The position numbers were made by a program, and so were the translations under genes. From positions 48,185,579-48,249,578 of the forward strand of contig CM055096.1 in assembly GCA_029204225.1 (NCBI GenBank): a DNA stretch of 64,000 nt. The letters are read 5' to 3'. This DNA comes from Diphasiastrum complanatum (taxonomy: Eukaryota; Streptophyta; Lycopodiopsida; Lycopodiales; Lycopodiaceae). The notes beneath the pieces are model-generated. The model made no database searches, was not told the origin of the DNA, and worked only from the letters and a program-made list of their open reading frames with translations. The stretch's first letter is position 1; each line of letters opens with the position of its first letter. Below are positions 2,336-40,088 of the stretch, in pieces.

Positions 2336-2415
2336 CAAATCATCGGCCGCCACCTAGATCGGCCTCCATTGCCCGTCAACGACAGGCACTCTTTACTAGT
2401 ATCTATATATATATG

Positions 2416-2418
<3 letters not shown>

Positions 2419-2464
<46 letters not shown>
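2419..2464. repeat. (AC)23 microsatellite
   Basis: Uninterrupted AC dinucleotides, flanked by (TA/TG)-rich tracts on both sides. It lies between the end of the RT fragment and the start of the unidentified ORF. Open frames through it give only His-Thr or Val-Cys repeats and are not genes. Confidence 0.97.
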
Positions 2465-2471
<7 letters not shown>

Positions 2472-3198
2472 TATACCGACCACCCTTGAGCGTGATGTGT
2501 ATCTTCAGACGCAAATACCAGAACATCCGGTCACACCGACGGAGATCACGTATTTGTTTAAGAAAGTGGAAACGTACAAAGTGGCCCTTCAGGGATTCCA
2601 AGGCCGCTTTGACAGGTTCAAAGGAGCAGCTTCAACTAAGTTGAGAAAGGCTAAAGAAACCATCAACGCCTATGAAAAAGTAGCCGCTCAAGTGTTGAAA
2701 GCCGGACCACAAATCCCCGTACCGGTCATGCCGCAATTCTTCCCTACATACCAAGAAGATGTACCAATGGATACAGGGCTGGATTCAAGCATGGACCAGG
2801 GGGGAGCTCCAGAAATACCTAAACAACTGCCAATTTTATCGGCAGCGCAAGCGGGTCCATCCTCATCAGAGACCACACCACTATTCAGAAGGCCCATGAA
2901 TGTCGAGGACCAGATCCAAAAAAAAATTTCGCAACATCCGCATGAGTCCTCGCGTGGTGGATGGATTTTTAAGTTCAAGACCTTCGAGATAGAGGCCGGC
3001 AAAGAGTTGGACAAAATACCTGCATTGGGAGAGCAGACGGCATGGAGAATTACCGTTTTTGAAAAAACTTCGGAATCAATCAGGAGTTATGTGGCCAGCC
3101 CTCGCCAATTGCGGGTCGATCCTTATTATGTGCCAATGCCGAGAAAGAATAAATGGAAAAATTTGGGATTGGCTATGGACAAGAACACAATCCATACA

Positions 3199-3358
3199 CC
3201 CTACATCTAGACAATATCAGTGGACTTCCACCAGGCTTTACAAACGTACCAAAGAGAGTATGGCCAATCATCCATCAGCCCTACATCTGAACAATATCAG
3301 TGGACTTCCACCGGGCTTTACAAGCATACCAAATAGAGTATGTCCACTCTCCAGATCC
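3199..3358 (+). repeat. 80-bp tandem duplication inside the unidentified ORF
   Basis: CCCTACATCT..ACAATATCAGTGGACTTCC occurs at 3199 and again at 3279, with continued similarity to the AGAGTATG/TGTCCA segment. The period is 80 bp, not a multiple of three, so the duplication itself throws the reading frame. The copies differ at several positions. Confidence 0.9.
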
Positions 3359-3648
3359 GACCATGCGACAATCGGCACTATTTGCAAAAGATCTAACTCT
3401 GTTGGCATCAGTGACAATCAGATGGGACGATTACCTTCCTACTCTGACATTCGATCCAAATAAGCCGATGGCCTCAGAGAATATCAAAGATCAGTTGTCG
3501 GTTGCTTGTTCATATTTTCGTGCAACAATGATGGGAGACTCTTGGGAATCAAGTTTCACATCATGGACGACCTCAAAGTGGATTGCACAACAACAAAATG
3601 CACGATTTTCGACACAAGCTTCCGATGGATTCAAAAAATTTCATAATA

Positions 3649-3906
3649 CGTCGGAATCCGACATAAAAATACGTCGGAATCCGACACAAAAAAAAAAATT
3701 GTCTGAAAAAAAAAATTGTCGGATTTTTTTTTTTACAGACGTTGGATTCCGACGGCCAATAAAAATGTTGGAATCCGACATCCCATTTCGGAGACTGCAA
3801 CTTTTTAAATGGATGACGTCACCTGTCCGTGCAAAAAAAAAAAAGCACAAAGCGAATGTCAGATTCCGACGGATAATATAGATGTTGGAATCCGATGTCC
3901 GTGAGC
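3649..3906. repeat. Left subterminal repeats of the CACTA-like element
   Basis: About seven full or partial copies of CGTCGGAATCCGAC (for example near 3649, 3671, 3740, 3768, 3868 and 3891), separated by A- and T-runs. In CACTA elements such arrays are transposase-binding sites. Confidence 0.8.
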
Positions 3907-5147
3907 GAATTCTCAAAGCCGCATCATTTTTCTAGGGTTTTCTTATTTTTTATTCTTGCAGGAGATTGTTGGAGATCGGCTTTTGGCGCTTCTTCTCAAC
4001 TCTATCAATTCCATTTGTCTCATTCCAAATACGATTCTTTTGTTTTGTTATGTGCAACTAAGATTTCTTTCTTTGTAACTTTTTCTTGTACAATATCTTC
4101 CTTGTACTGTATATTTTGTGTAGTTAAACACAAATACGTTTCTTAATGATTTATGATCATGAGCGAATGAGAGAGGAAGAGAAGGATGTGTGTGAGAGAC
4201 ATGAGAGAGAGCAAGAAAATATAGATAGAAGAGTTTGATTTAATATAATGTTCTTTGTAAAATTTAGGGTTTAGATTTAATGTTATGTTCTTTGTGAAAT
4301 AGTGAGACTGAGAGCTCTTGAGGTTTGAATGAAGATCATAACCAGCTCCACCATCAAAGATGTAGAGCTACCACTTTTTCTCACTGATTGATCCAATATG
4401 GCTATCTTGTTGCTACTTCCTATCGAGCCATAAAGGGTAATCCATCATTGTCCGATACATGTAAAATGAGTTGGAAGCTTGAGATATCTTGGCTATGGGG
4501 TGCTTAATTATCTCTGCTTTGTGAGTTAGAACCCAATTTTCCTTGCAAGATATTTGGAGAGCTGGCCTACCATCGTTGCTAGATGAGTGAGCCATCTAAC
4601 CATTCAATCACATTATAGCCATTGAGGAATTGAATGTTGACTTCCAAAACACTGAAGGATTATTGTTGATTTCCAAAAGAGAGTTGAGAGACGTGATTAT
4701 TAACATCGCTACCTCTATAATACATCTGACCATCACTGCTACTACTTTGCAAGCCTTCACTACGCCTATGTGTATTAGATATGAAGGAAAGCCATCATTA
4801 AGCTAGTTGTCAGATCAGAGACTCGGCTAATTGAGCCTTCACGACCATGAAAATGGAACTTGCAACTCTTGTCTAAAGCTTATCTATCAACGACCATTGA
4901 GAATTCACTGATTTATTGTCAATGGGAGCCCTCGTGGTTGTTCTAGTTGAGAGCAGTTCTGTCCTAGCAAAGTGACAAACATAGTAGAATCAATTGAAGC
5001 ATTCATGACTAGCACTTCTTCGTTTTCCGGCTACATGCATATGCACTCAGAAATAGGTATGGCTTTTATCTATTTTCAGTTCATTTTATCTATGTCATTT
5101 TTGTAATCATTTATTTTTTGTAATCGTTTTCTTTTTTGCCATGTGGA

Positions 5148-5427
5148 CGTCGGATTCCGACGGTCCGGACATGTGGACGTCGGAATCCAACGTCCACATG
5201 GCAAAAAAAAAAACCAGTGAAATTTTTTTTTCAAGTCTTTTTTTCACGTGGTCGTCGGATTACGACGGCCCGACCACGTGGACATCAGAATCCGACGTCC
5301 ACGTGGCCAGGCCGTCGGAATCCAACATCCACTTGGCATGTTCTCCGGTTCATTTTTATCGGCCGGTTGCCAGTTTTGGACTTGGCGTCGGATTTCGACG
5401 GATTTTAATGCGACGGATTCCGACGAC
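5148..5427. repeat. Right subterminal repeats of the CACTA-like element
   Basis: Seven variants of GACGTCGGAATCCGACG, near 5148, 5176, 5251, 5283, 5313, 5385 and 5410, several extended by GTGGAC/GTCCAC to form longer palindromes. They mirror the left cluster. Confidence 0.8.
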
Positions 5428-5658
5428 CTTATAGCAACGCATTTTTTGATGCCCGCGTCGATTCAAAAAAAAATCAAAATGCGATTTCACATCAAAAATC
5501 CTGCCGGAAATCGCATTAACTCTTGTAGTGTTGCAGGAGCCCATTGTTGTTTTCTGCCCCATAATTTGGATTTTAATACTGCTTGTCTCGACTTTATGGA
5601 GAAGGTGCAGTACCATTTGATAAAGATTCGTCGTGAAGCCAATAAAAGTCCACAATAA

Positions 5659-5916
5659 CTGCATCTCACGGGTGTCGTGGGACCGCCACCAGTTTTGGTG
5701 GGGGATACTATTTGAGGGTTGCTAATTCTTGAACAGAAAAGACAAGAACAATTTACAAAATGCAAAGATCTAGGTACGATGATCAAGGTGATAGAAGAGC
5801 CATGATATGAAAAAGCAAGCACACGAGATCATGAAAATAATTTACTGTGTTAAAGCTTTTTATATCAATAAAAATAAGTCCCAAACATTGGGCCTTTTTT
5901 TTTTACAAACTATGAT
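5659..5916. other. Gene-free stretch with a polypurine-like tract
   Basis: No coding frame is recognised. The notable feature is TTTTGGTGGGGGATA (5693-5707), preceded by an inverted match, CCGCCACC. Similar GGTGGGGGA tracts prime plus-strand synthesis in plant Gypsy elements. No TG-initiated LTR is evident immediately after it. Confidence 0.4.
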
Positions 5917-6210
5917 TCATTTTGAAGATTTGACTACTTTTTCTTGTGGCCGTGCTGACTTTCTCTCTTTCTTTGGTCTGTGCTCCATCGGCTTGATCTC
6001 TTCTTTAATAGTAGATATCTCGTTATAAAATGCAACACCTCTATGATCCATAATAGTGACATCAGGAGAAAAGGCTCCTAATTTTGACCTTGTTTCTAAA
6101 TCAGCCTTATCATTTTTAGGATCACATATTGCTACCTTTGTAAGAATGAGTTTGATTAAATCTTGTCTGAATTTATACACATCATTAAATGTGTACACAC
6201 CAAGTGAGAA
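5917..6210 (-). CDS. Possible terminal exon of an unrecognised minus-strand gene
   Basis: Read on the minus strand, a T-rich tract ending TTTGTAG (a plausible plant intron 3' end) is followed by about 97 codons in one frame, ending in TGA at 5917-5919. The product begins FSLGVYTFNDVYKFRQ, contains VAICDPKND and PDVTIMDHRGVAFYNE, and ends in a strongly basic tail (KPMEHRPKKERKSARPQEK). It does not resemble the retrotransposon proteins nearby. No 5' exons could be assigned; a donor-like AAGTGAGC near 6300 does not join in a clean frame. It may be a captured gene fragment or chance. Confidence 0.3.
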   Translation of the reverse strand, partial: FSLGVYTFNDVYKFRQDLIKLILTKVAICDPKNDKADLETRSKLGAFSPDVTIMDHRGVAFYNEISTIKEEIKPMEHRPKKERKSARPQEKVVKSSK

Positions 6211-6384
6211 CTACAAACATACACAAAATTGAGTTTAGAAATACAGCCGTATTCATAATGAAAAATACATAAAATAAAAAACAAGTAGGATAATGATGCT
6301 CACTTGCTAGATATCGACAATGTCTTGTTGAAATTATATCACTCAAAAAGCATTGGTTGTGGATGTAAGTAGATCTCATGCTTT

Positions 6385-6840
6385 CTTTCTTTATAATATG
6401 GAATGTAGATGTGGATTAGTTTTCTTGCTTCTTGTTTATGTAATTTTCAACATCCAGACAAACTAAATAGGCTAAGATTGTGGTTCAATTCTTGCTTATT
6501 TACTAACAATCATGTCCTTGATTGTTCTTGGGTATTCCAAGAATCAAGAGATGGGTATTTCTTGATTCTTGGGATGCTAGTATGTTGTTAGGTAGTTAGT
6601 TTTCTTGTTTCTTGATGCTTGATCTGTAGATTAATCTTGATGCCATACTGTTCCCTGATTTCTTAGAGTAATTTAGTAGGCATAATCGCAGATTGCTCTC
6701 TTGTTCAGAACGCTAATCTGTATTGAGCAAGGATTGGTTACATGGATTGTAAATGCATGTAGCTGGAGTGAACGAAACTGTTTCATCTCATTGACAAGCT
6801 AGGAATACAAGTGGTAAATTGACAAATGACTTGCCTGGAA
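6385..6840 (+). repeat. LTR-like fragment related to 22985-23500
   Basis: GTGGATTAG..TTTCTTG, AGGCTAGAAATGTGGTT-like and TCCAAGAATCAAGA..TTTCTT..ATTCTTGG motifs appear in the same order here and downstream of the TATA-like site of the Gypsy-type LTR at 22383-23649. This suggests a diverged R-U5 fragment of the same family, with no adjoining gag or pol. Confidence 0.55.
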
Positions 6841-8402: not shown

Positions 8403-10290
8403 TCAACAAATTTTAAGTACAAAAAGCTTTGATCTAAACTTATCAAACTTTTCTCCAACATGTGGCTTAGTGAAAATATCAGCTAGTTGTTCTTCCGTAC
8501 TACAATGAACAACATGAATTTCACGACTCAGCAGCCTCTCACGTATAAAGTGATACTGAATCTCAATGTGTTTCATTCTCGCATGGAACATTGGATTCTT
8601 TGCAAGCTGAATGTCACTCTGGTTGTTGCTATGTATAGTCGTGGGATTTTTCTGTTTCATGCCAACTTCTTCCAAGATCTGTCTCAACCATATAGCTTCA
8701 TGTGTTGCACTACACATTGCCTTATACTCTGCTTCTGTGGTGGATAGAGCAATCGTACTTTGCTTCTTACTAGACCAGGACAAGCAACTACCACAAAGCT
8801 GGAATACATACCTTGTGGTGGATCTACGATCATCATAGTCACCTTCCCAATCCGCATCCACATAGCCACATAACTCAGGTAAACCCCCATGCTTATGGTA
8901 AATCAAGCCATAATTTGAAGTGCCTTTGACATAACACAAAATGCGCTTAGCTACTTTCCAATGTGTTTCCGTAGGTGCTGTCATAAACTGACTTACAATA
9001 CCAACAACATAACATATATCTGGTCTAGTCGCGGTAAGGTAAATCAAGCTCCCTACTAAATGTCTATATAGCGTAGCATCAAATGGCTGTGACTCATCAA
9101 GCTTAGAAAGCTTTTGACCTGGTTCAATAAGAGTATTCACTGGTTTGCAATCCTGCAACCTGAACCTGTGCAACAACTCTTTGATATACTTCACCTGTAT
9201 TAAACCCACTTCATGTCATTTTTGCCACACCTATGCTCGAAGGCAATAATGCATTAGGTTGAGATCTGTCATCTTGAATTGTTCCATGAGGTCTTTCTTG
9301 ATCATGTCTATCATCTCTTAATTATTTTCTATAATAATCAAGTCATCAACATAAAGAACAATAAAAGCAACCATACCATCAAAGCATAAGACATACATAT
9401 TTGGATCAGAATGTGTTCTCACCATCCCCTTTGAACGAAAGTAGGCATCAATCCTGCTATACCACACACGTGGTGCCTGTTTAAGACCATAAAGCACTTT
9501 CTTCAAGTGACATACTTTATTCTCCTGTCCTTTCGCTACAAATCATTCAGGTTGATCCATGAACACCTCTTCTTCTAACTCACCATTTAGAAAAGTAGAT
9601 TTCACATCCATCTGATACAAAGGCCAACCAAAATGTGAAGCTAAAGCAATAAGTAGACATAGAGTATTCCACTTACATACTGGCGCAAAGGTCTCTTCAT
9701 AGTCGATCCCTTTACTTTGTGCATACCCTTTGATCACCAATCTTGCTTTGTGCTTTGCTATACTTCCATCTGCATGGTACTTAGCCCATTATACCCATTT
9801 GCAACCAATGGGTTTCTTGCCAATTGGTGGTTTCCACTAAGTCCCATGTGCTATGCTTAGTAATTGACTCCATCTCCTCTCCCATGGCCTTGACCCAAAT
9901 GTCATCATCCTTCGCTTCACTATAAGTCAAAGGTTGTTTGCTTTGAATAATGCTAGATAAGAGAGCATAATTTGCTTCATACATTTCAGGTTGTGTCTTC
10001 TCTCTTGTTGATCTTCGTAGCTCTCCTTGGCTAGATGATCCTGGAAAGTCATCCATGTCGCGGCTCTCCAATCATCTCTAAAACCATTTAGGGAGCTTCC
10101 TATCGGGTGATCGGCTGGTGAAAATGTATCCCACGGTACATCTTTCTCCTTGCGTTTATCACCTGCAACTTCAATCCTTCTTGTACTAAAAGGTTTATCT
10201 CTACCTCTCCAACCTGCCTCTTAAGATTGAGTAGTAGTATTTTGAGATGTATCCTCATCCATCACTTGGATAACAATGTGACTACGTTTT
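8403..10290 (-). pseudogene. Copia B pol remnant (linker, RT, RNase H)
   Basis: Read from right to left: a linker rich in acidic and serine residues with RRSTREK (10071-9781), RT N-terminal half with KGIDYEETFAPV and QMDVKSTFLNGELEEEV (9740-9543), RT C-terminal half with VLYGLKQAPRVWY and catalytic YVDD (codons at 9353-9342), then Copia RNase H (9209-8403) with ADWEGD, SSKKQSTIALSTTEAEY, HARMKHIEI and ADIFTKP. The RNase H reading frame is intact for 268 codons, ending in TGA. Stops and frameshifts near 9210-9320, 9507-9542 and 9741-9780 break the rest; gag, protease and integrase are missing. Confidence 0.88.
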
Positions 10291-33242: not shown

Positions 33243-33657
33243 GACGTAGATCCTAGGCCATTCGTACCCTACGCGGTTCAAGATTTTCCCAAGATCGACC
33301 TTCCGAGGTTTGATGGCAAAGGAGATCCGCGACGATTTCTACAGATCTACACCCAAGCATGTAGAGCCTACAGGAACAACAGCCCGCAAGAGCTGTTAAG
33401 ATATTTCAATCTGTGCTTGATCGACACTGGAAAAGATTGGTACTTCAATCTTGAGCACAATGAACAAGACAATTGGAACATCTTACAAGCTGAATTCATC
33501 ACCAAATTCAAACCACCCGCTTCCTTTTTGATCCATTCCTACAACTTGGACAAATCTGTATGGATAAGAAAAACGAGTCCTTGCATGATTATATTGAACG
33601 AATCAAGAGATTGCATGGTGGATGCGACCTTGATAGCGTCCCAGATCATAGTGTCCT
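33243..33657 (+). pseudogene. Gypsy G1 gag, N-terminal part
   Basis: The frame from 33243 encodes PYAVQDFPKIDLPRFDGKGD, then FLQIYTQACRAYRNNSPQEL, DTGKDWYF and a FITKFKP motif, the capsid layout of plant Gypsy gag (retrotrans_gag). A frameshift lies near 33510; after it the other frame gives DYIERIKRLHGG. Homologous to G3 gag at 51880-52200. It is cut at 33657 by Copia A and continues at 40094; the frame is continuous across the insertion when one GTCCT is counted. The start codon is not clear. Confidence 0.85.
33653..33657. repeat. Target-site duplication of Copia A (left)
   Basis: GTCCT immediately before the LTR start TGTGAAAA; the identical GTCCT follows the other LTR at 40089-40093. Confidence 0.95.
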
Positions 33658-34312
33658 TGTGAAAATTGTCAACATTTCCTAGCTAGTTTGAGGCCTAAAT
33701 TGGCTAAAATTGTAAATAGTTTTGGTTCTGGAGTTTTGCACGTGTGAACCAGGCCACAATGTTTTTATTTACTGTATTTTTTCAGTATGATGAAGTGTCA
33801 AACTTCATACCCTTCAAAATGAGACCATTTTGATGTATTTTGGTCATATAAGCCATTTTTAGCTATTTTTCCTATATAGGGAATATCTAGGGTCAAGTAC
33901 CTTCTAGAGAGAGGAGAGAGAGTCATCTTCCTCATCCATAAATAGTAGGGAAGTCGTGGAGAACAGGTTGGAGAAACCTTTTGTATGCTTCATTGAGATC
34001 AATAGATCATTGTCATTGTTTCTTCCTCCATTGAGAGCATTGTTGTGTGTATTGTCTTCAAGCTATTGTGTATGATCTTAGGTGCTTTCCAAAAGTGGTA
34101 GGCTGATGTATTATGGACTGTATAATGCTATTTTGGGCCGCACTTGATGTTTATGGAAGCTTCCATGTGTGATAAATGCTTTTTGATCAAGTTCTTTGCA
34201 TTCTAGGTAGCATAGAATGTGTTGCCAATTCCTAGCTTATGTAGTTTGGAGTGCAAGCATTCAAGCCAATGATCTTGGAGTTTAGATCCACTTAGGATCT
34301 ATATTTTTCACA
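33658..34312 (+). repeat. 5' LTR of Copia A
   Basis: 655 bp, TGTGAAAATTG...TTTTTCACA. Holds a GCACGTGTG motif near 33739 and a TATA-like CATAAATAG near 33938, preceded by a GAGAGGAGAGAGAG purine tract, a likely Pol II promoter region. Confidence 0.96.
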
Positions 34313-34324
34313 TGGTATCAGAGC
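34313..34324 (+). promoter_or_regulatory. Primer-binding site of Copia A
   Basis: TGGTATCAGAGC directly after the LTR, the standard plant Copia site complementary to initiator methionine tRNA. Confidence 0.95.
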
Positions 34325-35484
34325 TGGTTGGCTTCTATTTACAGTAAGTATTCCATTTTTGGTGATATTTGGATGTTTGATCAAGTTCTAGCATGATTTT
34401 GCATTGCTTTGTTGATCAAATCTTACTAACCTTTGTTTTGTGAGTTGAACTTGTGGATCAAAAGCATATTTCAGGTCTATTGAAGATCAGAGGCTGAAAA
34501 GAAACTATTTTGGATCAGATCATAACACCTAATCATTTGTGATTGTGAGGCTTGTGCATATTCAATACTAACAATGTTCTTTTCAATCCTATTGTTGACA
34601 ATCTCCATTCTTGGATGAACACTCTCCTTAAGTGGATGAAACTTCTCCTTAAGTGGATGACAAATGCTCTTTTGAGTGAGTTGTAATTCTCCTAAAGGCT
34701 GAGCAAAGCTCCCATTTGGATGAAAGATCCCCTTTTTTGGGTGAACATATTGTAAGCTCCATTGTGAAGAGCATATTGTAAAGATTGTCATCAATTTTGG
34801 CATAAATTTTGGTGTACTTTGTTGAGCATGTAAGTAACTCTCCTTATGTAATTTGATTGGAGCATTTGCTGGAAGGTGTTAACCATTATGCAAGTGTGTT
34901 TTCAGGTTCTTAACAGGTTGAGGAACATTCTCGTGTGAAGTGATCTTAGATCTACATCTAAACACCAAGATTTGACAAGATAGTGAAGCTAGTCTTGTGA
35001 TTCACTAAGTGTGCTCATTCATTCACCTCTAAATCTTGTATTTATCACTTGCTGGAGTTTATAAACTTTTAGAAGTGTGGTTTACATGTGGTTTTACAGG
35101 TTGAATCAATATCTTAGTGTGTTGATCATATGTTGATCAAGTTTGTTCATTACTAGGTAATCTTGGCATCCTAGTTTTGGGTATTTTCTAAGAATGCAAG
35201 TAACTCTTCACACCATAACTTGATTTGGTCACTTGCTGGAAAGTTTGAGAGCTTAAGCAAGAGTGTGTTCAGGTTGGTTTGATTTTGTAATCCATTCTTA
35301 GTGTGTGCAAAGTGTTGCATGTGTTTCAATCTTCCTTTCTATGCTTGGAAACCATCTAGGTTCAAGATAGAAGTGTTTTAGGGTCCTAAATCTTCATAGA
35401 TCTCTTTATCTATCATTTGTTGAGAGAAAAGTGAGTGCTAAGTGCTTTAGGACAGAACCTAAAAGTTGAAGAAACATTAGAATC
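34325..35484 (+). other. Untranslated leader of Copia A with three about 183-bp repeats
   Basis: About 1.16 kb between primer site and start codon, no conserved ORF on the sense strand. TTGCTGGA..AAGTGTG..CAGGTTG blocks recur at 34866, 35049 and 35233 (spacings 183 and 184 bp) with GTAACTCTNC..TTGATTTGG preceding two of them. The same arrangement is in the inverted copy. Confidence 0.8.
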
Positions 35485-38400: not shown

Positions 38401-39438
38401 CATTCTCTCTACTTTAGATTGAATGAAAATGATATCACTTTACTTTTGATCTATGTTGATGACATTATCTTAAGTGGTGGTAACAATCTAGATATAGATG
38501 AAATCAAGATGGCACTCAAAAGAGAGTTTGAAATTCAAGATCTTGGTAAACTTCATTATATCTTAGGAATAGAGATTATTAGAACTTCTAAATCTACATT
38601 CATATGTCAAGAAAAGTATGTTAACTCTATTCTAAAAAGGTTTCATATGGAAGATTGTAAAGTTGTTTCTACTCCTATGGAATCAAATGTAAAGCTAACT
38701 ACAAGAAGTAATGAAAGATCCTTCAAGGACATTACTCTCTATAGAAAGCTAATAGGATCTCTTATATGGTTAACCATCACAAGACCTGATCTAAGCTTTG
38801 TGGTTGGTAAACTAAGTCAATTTATGCAAGATCCTAGTGAGGCTCATTGGAAGCTAGGAAAGAGAGTACTTAGATACATCTCGGGATCTAGAGATTTTGG
38901 CATCTTGTATGGAGGTACTACACCTAACCTTTGTGGATTTTCAGATTCAGATTTTGCAGGTGATCAAATGGATAGGAAGTCAACAAGTTCCTTTGCAATC
39001 TATCTTGGAGATGGAGTGGTCTCATGGCTATCAAAGAAGCAACCAACTATCTCTCTATCTTCCACCGAAGCCGAGTACAAGGCATTAACAACATGCACCA
39101 AGGAGATTCTTTGGATCAAGAGGATGTTATTGGATCTTCACTTGCTGGAACCAGAGAAGACTCCAATCATACTTTGTGATAACCTTTCAGCCCAAAGCTT
39201 GGCAAGCAATCCTGTTTTTCATGCAAGGAGCAAGCACATTGAGATTGCTCACCATTTTGTGAGAGATCAAGTCATTGCCAAAGAGGTGGAGCTTCAACAT
39301 GTCTCTTCAAAGGAGTGTGTGGCTGATATCTTCACCAAACCATTGGGAAAGGACCTATATTTAATGCATAGATCTAATCTTGGAATGTGCTCAAAGACTA
39401 TGTTGAAACTAGCATCCAATGTTGAAGAGGGAGTGTGA
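35485..39438 (+). CDS. Copia gag-pol polyprotein, intact
   Basis: 1317 codons with no stop or shift. Gag: SSERLSSSNYSTWKVRM (about residues 9-25), UBN2 core to 200, Lys/Gly-rich stretch, zinc knuckle C250-X2-C253-X4-H258-X4-C263. Protease active site D309-S310-G311. GAG-pre-integrase VWHKRLGHPNF (about 438-448) and HX..CX2C zinc residues. Integrase catalytic D506, D568, E604 (DX35E). RT with YDETFAPVAKM, MDVTNAFLNGDLEED and Y990-V-D-D993. RNase H with SDSDFAGD (D1154, D1156), STEAEY and HARSKHIEIAHHF. All catalytic residues are present, so it is probably functional. The TGA stop uses the first bases of the 3' LTR. The ATG at 35485 is the first in frame with the gag motif. Confidence 0.97.
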   Translation: MASNGGIMLESSERLSSSNYSTWKVRMESLLELNELMDIVAEIEERPLTLQEQQRFDKKAKRALHIIKMNVTNELLKEVGKCQSASEAWNALKKLFESKSTSRVLTLRRQIFSSRQREGESAHAFILRVKSLSDDLACIDENIKDGEIVQVMLNGLLNEHANLVQSFAIQRVLPSVVDLQEILLAEEHRLQSKLDGASLQGGGEEAFFTKGKFKGKGKGKGKWSKGGNFDHDDHSSSSSSTKNNKSKFKCFYCGIKVHFANECYKKKREQGERQGNLTIDEEEHNTCESLVMTSSLLANIDDNDPWWIDSGASSHMTRHKEYITSLLSYEGEGNIIYTANDGQCDIKGIGTIPISLSTNRKANLENVLYIPSITKNLLSVSQMIDKGLDVEFIGDACLISKCGSLIAQGRRHGKLFKLDACVISNHEGCMAREQLTNQEVWHKRLGHPNFKSLEVMAKKELVLGLPKSLVANNSVCEHCALSKSHRLAYSRSTSRSKEAFQLVHSDIHSSSTTSNGGAKMYATFIDDFSRYTWIYLLKSKDEVFAAFVKFKNEMENQFNTKIKCLRSDNGGEYTSNRFKDFCIAHGIKREMSSPRTPQQNGVAERKNRTLCECAKAMRLHANLAKSFWGEALACANYLCNRWTSASLDGKTPHEVLYGRRPSVKHCRIFGCTCFVNITLDDRTKEDPSSKKGVFVGYSEVSKAYKVYIPSTKKVVISRDVIFHEENVSNVVDVDVDVPTNHHDVQDVLDEDGDATPKQTSRKTQRQRAKPSRLTYDEKGKQVVDNSNFAFLTSFDEPTCVGEAIQKKEWIQAMDHEHQALIKSNTWRLVKLPKDKKAIGCKWIFKIKTNQDGSINKYKARLVAKGYAQEYGIDYDETFAPVAKMVTIRILISLATLYDWDMWQMDVTNAFLNGDLEEDIYMEQPEGYVSHDEPNHVCYLQKSLYGLKQAPRSWYAKLNSFLLSQNFVMSEYDHSLYFRLNENDITLLLIYVDDIILSGGNNLDIDEIKMALKREFEIQDLGKLHYILGIEIIRTSKSTFICQEKYVNSILKRFHMEDCKVVSTPMESNVKLTTRSNERSFKDITLYRKLIGSLIWLTITRPDLSFVVGKLSQFMQDPSEAHWKLGKRVLRYISGSRDFGILYGGTTPNLCGFSDSDFAGDQMDRKSTSSFAIYLGDGVVSWLSKKQPTISLSSTEAEYKALTTCTKEILWIKRMLLDLHLLEPEKTPIILCDNLSAQSLASNPVFHARSKHIEIAHHFVRDQVIAKEVELQHVSSKECVADIFTKPLGKDLYLMHRSNLGMCSKTMLKLASNVEEGV
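39424..39433 (+). promoter_or_regulatory. Polypurine tract of Copia A
   Basis: GAAGAGGGAG ends exactly at the 3' LTR start and is part of the last polyprotein codons. Confidence 0.88.
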
Positions 39439-40088
39439 AAATTGTCAACATTTCCTAGCTAGTTTGAGGCCTAAATTGGCTAAAATTGTAAATAGTTTTG
39501 GTTCTGGAGTTTTGCACGTGTGAACCAGGCCACAATGTTTTTATTTACTGTATTTTTTCAGTATGATGAAGTGTCAAACTTCATACCCTTCAAAATGAGA
39601 CCATTTTGATGTATTTTGGTCATATAAGCCATTTTTAGCTATTTTTCCTATATAGGGAATATCTAGGGTCAAGTACCTTCTAGAGAGAGGAGAGAGAGTC
39701 ATCTTCCTCATCCATAAATAGTAGGGAAGTCGTGGAGAACAGGTTGGAGAAACCTTTTGTATGCTTCATTGAGATCAATAGATCATTGTCATTGTTTCTT
39801 CCTCCATTGAGAGCATTGTTGTGTGTATTGTCTTCAAGCTATTGTGTATGATCTTAGGTGCTTTCCAAAAGTGGTAGGCTGATGTATTATGGACTGTATA
39901 ATGCTATTTTGGGCCGCACTTGATGTTTATGGAAGTTTCCATTTGTGATAAATGCTTTTTGATCAAGTTCTTTGCATTCTAGGTAGCATAGAATGTGTTG
40001 CCAATTCCTAGCTTATGTAGTTTGGAGTGCAAGCATTCAAGCCAATGATCTTGGAGTTTAGATCCACTTAGGATCTGTATTTTTCACA
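39434..40088 (+). repeat. 3' LTR of Copia A
   Basis: 655 bp, same ends as the 5' LTR. Differences seen: GGAAGTTTCCATTTG (5' copy GGAAGCTTCCATGTG) and GGATCTGTAT (5' copy GGATCTATAT). Followed by GTCCT. Confidence 0.97.

Follow-up and report, generated by a model that had tools for sequence, protein, structure and literature searches.

CACTA (En/Spm) transposons of plants have terminal inverted repeats of 10-28 bp, a TAGTG end, a 3-bp duplication of the target, and subterminal repeats of 10-20 bp in direct and inverted orientation, distributed unequally between the ends, most copies being non-autonomous (PMC7139988, PMC2613891). In a radish element, the En/Spm terminus has been reported as CACTACAAGAAAA (PMC7210773). 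Here, we examine an insertion that shares most of this architecture, located in a 64-kb stretch of DNA at C5:48185579-48249578, whose full length we call the window. A first-pass annotation had described it as a CACTA-like, non-autonomous element lying within an unknown reading frame. Our analysis indicates, with a probability of about 0.9, that positions 3586-5530 are a non-autonomous CACTA-type (En/Spm) DNA transposon that moved in trans into the ORF of a retrotransposon.

Boundaries and internal structure of the insertion

On reading window positions 2400-6600, we found the insert to occupy exactly 3586-5530, a length of 1945 bp with TTG directly on either side, so the extent proposed at first pass was correct to the base. 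The features of the insert and its target site are as follows.

3583-3585, forward strand: left-hand TTG of the target site duplication; aligned empty host copies all have a single TTG here, while the window has one on both sides
5531-5533, forward strand: target site duplication, right copy TTG; from the window and from the ends of family copies
3586-5530, forward strand: very probably a non-autonomous DNA transposon of CACTA type, 1945 bp long; its family has many copies with fixed ends, and 3-bp duplications flank 10 of the 12 independent copies that are complete
3586-3611, forward strand: left terminal repeat, CACAACAACAAAATGCACGATTTTCG; start identical in all family loci; the pattern CACAACAACAAAATGNNNNATTT has 228 matches in the genome and its reversed control 0
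5505-5530, reverse strand: right terminal repeat, reading inward CACTACAAGAGTTAATGCGATTTCCG (usual family form CACTACAAGAATTGCCGCGATTTTCG); end identical in all complete copies; the pattern CACTACAAGAATTGNNGCGATTT has 126 matches and its control 0
3650-3896, no strand assigned: left subterminal repeat cluster, six sites of motif GTCGGAWTCCGAC at no more than 2 mismatches
5133-5424, no strand assigned: right subterminal repeat cluster, about 7 motif sites; inverted repeats of 37-70 nt are nested here
3900-5130, forward strand: interior with no recognisable coding region; one ORF tested, at 3895-4146, had no Pfam match

Read inward, the right end is CACTACAAGAGTTAATGCGATTT and the left end is CACAACAACAAAATGCACGATTT, an imperfect inverted match to it. 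This pairing, already noticed at first pass, is borne out by its alignment score, which 6 of 20,000 segment pairs drawn at random from the window reached. The resulting terminal inverted repeats, imperfect and about 26 bp long, fall within the 10-28 bp of CACTA elements. Repeats of the 10-20 bp class, in direct and inverted orientation, make up the subterminal regions: the 13-bp motif GTCGGATTCCGAC, allowing up to 2 mismatches and counting both strands, gives 24 strand-matches in the 64-kb window versus 0.24 expected, and all of them fall in 3650-3896 and 5149-5424, that is, inside the element only. The first-pass description of opposed clusters holds for the two regions and needs correcting on orientation, since the motif, being an imperfect palindrome, can be read in either direction at every site. 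Furthermore, the window copy lacks a stretch of about 74-106 bp, at approximately 4470-4485, that is present in eight inspected relatives. Neither the element nor its sampled relatives revealed a transposase, which supports the earlier view of a non-autonomous element.

The interrupted reading frame belongs to a retrotransposon

Both flanks of the insert are high-copy, with thousands of first-look candidates on each side. When joined without the insert and one TTG, they align unbroken to 17 other places at 85-92% identity, some of these being near-identical duplicates of one another. Across the junction, the empty copies read ...CTCAAAGTGGATTGCAGGAGCCC... with small substitutions and a single TTG; empty sites in paralogous copies are thus directly visible, and these relatives of the ORF run straight through the site instead of containing the insert as an ordinary part. 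One of them (L058, on C12) carries a 159-aa ORF reading TTSKWIAGAHRCFLPHNLDFN, so the frame that the first-pass annotation had rejoined on paper, from SKWI to AGAHCC, occurs naturally. In the window, this rejoined frame is only the tail of the host ORF, the upstream part being in another frame with stops.

The nature of the host follows from its paralogs, in which the ORF ends just before a polypurine stretch, GGTGGGGGATAC, followed by TGTTGGAGGG. From TGTTGGAGGG to ...CCCACTACA, the paralogs are alike over about 733 bp, beyond which most of ten copies have unrelated flanks. A polypurine tract followed by a segment that starts with TG and ends with CA, with flanks differing between copies, is what is expected of an LTR, and the ~733-bp segment is therefore the 3' LTR of a high-copy LTR retrotransposon. 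The interrupted frame is accordingly the 3' ORF of this retrotransposon and not a cellular gene, which explains what had been listed as an unknown reading frame. Two segments of the window belong to the host.

2481-3585 (left limit approximate), forward strand: ORF region of the host LTR retrotransposon left of the insertion, degraded, with shifted frames; 2990 candidates, and paralog ORFs
5531-5720, forward strand: the host ORF closes here with a stop at 5656-5658; a polypurine tract at about 5698-5708 and the beginning of a truncated 3' LTR come next, as judged from paralogs

Degradation of the host copy in the window shows in its LTR, which breaks off at about 5720, and in the left portion of its ORF, where frames are shifted and stops occur. 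None of the host ORF pieces had a significant match when scanned against Pfam. The position of the ORF just before the LTR suggests that the host element is gag-only or otherwise non-autonomous.

The window as a whole is rich in retrotransposons. Two reverse-strand segments, 1796-2353 and 8403-9209, contain a reverse transcriptase of copia type (RVT_2, E 3.8e-46) and a copia RNase H region, the latter recognised by eye. Moreover, the window has repeats at 99.5% identity: positions 1-1739 are an inverted copy of 33657-35395, and 655 bp of the same segment recur at 39434-40088. Another element probably accounts for these repeats, either as its LTRs or as recently duplicated copies.

A dispersed family with common ends

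The element is one of many. A search of the 1.74-Gb genome with the whole element gave 1065 candidates, the 40 best of which contained 147 matching stretches, and the left 900 bp alone matched 40 scored places, out of 576 candidates, at 90-100% identity. Within this one genome, the family thus runs to dozens of copies that were scored, with candidates in the hundreds. The window copy groups with its two nearest copies, the three being 97-99% similar to one another and about 90-93% similar to the remaining copies across the left half.

Ends were read at about 30 loci, and duplicates with shared flanks were counted once, leaving 12 independent complete insertions. The left boundary falls at the identical base in all of the roughly 30 loci, and the complete copies, which measure 1681-2179 bp, share one end base, so that copies with the same termini do exist and none of the complete ones read ends elsewhere. 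Ten of the 12 have a perfect 3-bp target duplication of varied sequence (TTG, TTG, AAA, CGG, TTA, TTT, AGC, TAG, TTA, AAG), a result with a computed chance probability of about 1e-15; in the other two, one copy matches at two of three bases and one at none. Exact left and right ends on C1-C8 pair only over spans of 0.9-2.6 kb, and these pairs yielded no autonomous copy. Every complete copy has TAGTG at its right end. At the left, the terminus is CACAACAAC rather than CACTA in nearly every family copy; nearly all copies begin with CACAA, minor variants including CCCAA, CAAAA and TACAA.

Family termini also occur in other arrangements. A stretch of about 42 kb (C6:42135011-42176657) holds 26 exact left termini on both strands, many of them about 300 bp apart, and is a satellite-like tandem array built from the left terminal region of the family, bases 1 to ~310; the part of the array that was read (C6:42138900-42143900) contains no exact right end. 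On C8, two left ends lie 8.3 kb apart with near-identical flanks (19737900-19746300, locus L073), and the arrangement recurs 60.6 kb away (19798514/19806758), forming a duplicated block.

Classification and mode of insertion

Could the 1945 bp be intronic or simply belong to the host ORF? The clean continuation of the host frame once the insert is removed is what such a reading would predict. Against it stand insert ends that do not show GT-AG, the occurrence of the element sequence in many unrelated contexts with 3-bp duplications, and the 17 host paralogs that lack the insert, so that we give this explanation next to no weight; the empty paralogs and dispersed copies rule it out for practical purposes. 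An assembly artefact was likewise dismissed, on the basis of the empty sites and of dispersed copies with independent flanks. A different question is whether the element belongs to another superfamily of terminal-inverted-repeat transposons with 3-bp duplications. PIF/Harbinger elements prefer TWA-type 3-bp targets. The targets found here are varied (for example, TTG, AAA, CGG, AGC and AAG) and not of the TWA type, and the right end, CACTACAAGAA/TAGTG, matches the reported En/Spm terminus CACTACAAGAAAA (PMC7210773). PIF/Harbinger does make 3-bp target duplications (PMC2213677), and no transposase ties the present family to CACTA; on balance, an origin in that superfamily appears improbable.

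The label CACTA-like given at first pass fits the right end as well as the subterminal repeats and the 3-bp duplication, and is qualified by the family-wide CACAA left end and by the lack of a transposase that would link the family to the superfamily. The genome contains thousands of candidates for Transposase_21 (tnp2, PF02992), which makes a source of transposase plausible. The 150 best were scored, and the ten best loci among these have neither family ends nor the subterminal motif within 3.6 kb; no transposase ORF was evident on reading L073, L074 and L075. Membership of CACTA is therefore a matter of cis features only, no autonomous partner having been found among the loci sampled.

For the non-autonomous CACTA-type transposon favoured here, a transposase from an autonomous relative would recognise the element ends in trans, and a TNPA-like protein may bind the subterminal repeats and aid this recognition. 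The element would then have been cut out elsewhere, in a cut-and-paste step, and pasted at a TTG of the retrotransposon's 3' ORF, where a staggered cut of 3 bp would have left TTG duplicated. A more speculative proposal, which we consider possible though doubtful, is that the ends of the family are fixed as unlike (CACAAC left, CACTAC right), that its transposase tolerates this asymmetry, and that the left end alone was amplified into the satellite-like array of ~300-bp units on another chromosome.

Local duplication of host and insert

Among the host copies examined, the insert is carried at this site only by the window copy, L003, L002, L049, L050 and L054. L003 is an inverted copy 42 kb from the window copy and shares flanks with it beyond the truncated LTR. 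L002, on an unplaced contig, probably represents the other haplotype or a duplicate created in assembly; L049, L050 and L054 are three more carriers within about 70 kb on C5. Along C5:48123688-48191338, which includes window positions 2481-5720, at least five host copies have the insert at the same TTG site, and in the cluster formed by the window, L003, L049, L050 and L054, some copies have rearranged interiors.

The shared insertion site, together with the flanks common to the window and L003, leads us to infer that host and insert were copied locally on C5 by segmental duplication. For the C5 copies, an alternative would be retrotransposition of a host that already carried the CACTA element: in L049, L050 and L054, the right end abuts host sequence at this same TTG, and in L054 a full 3' LTR is present, with a flank of its own behind it. 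Such a history is unlikely given that all carriers are confined to about 70 kb of one chromosome plus one unplaced contig, and that the common flanks of the window and L003 extend beyond the truncated LTR. The shared site also suggests that the insertion most likely preceded the local duplications.

Significance and comparison with known systems

The family, here unnamed, is very probably a non-autonomous member of a well-known superfamily; the copy in the window is nested in an older retrotransposon, and the kind is an ordinary one. The case shows that a transposon insertion can be placed to the base by reading raw sequence. Repeat annotation gains one abundant non-autonomous CACTA-type family and an explanation for an interrupted retrotransposon ORF, while views of transposon biology are unchanged.

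The closest described systems are the En/Spm (CACTA, CMC) elements of plants, such as the non-autonomous dSpm-type elements of maize, soybean Tgm1/Tgmt* (PMC2613891), sunflower Tetu1 (PMC7139988) and radish RsMYB1-CACTA (PMC7210773). Like these, the present family has a right terminus of CACTACAAGAA..., a TAGTG 3' end, imperfect inverted termini and a 3-bp target duplication; a short subterminal motif repeated in either orientation, to an unequal extent at each end, and deletion derivatives without transposase are further points in common. The difference is the left end, which is CACAACAAC throughout the window family. PIF/Harbinger resembles the family in its 3-bp target duplication and terminal inverted repeats and departs from it in target choice and terminal sequence. 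The tandem array on C6 recalls the CACTA-like Jozin of Chenopodium and its satellite CficCl-61-40, where a CACTA-type family likewise yielded tandem arrays (PMC7320549, PMC8978399). However, the CficCl-61-40 monomer derives from a piece of about 40 bp of the tnp2 gene, whereas about 300 bp of left terminal sequence supplied the C6 array.
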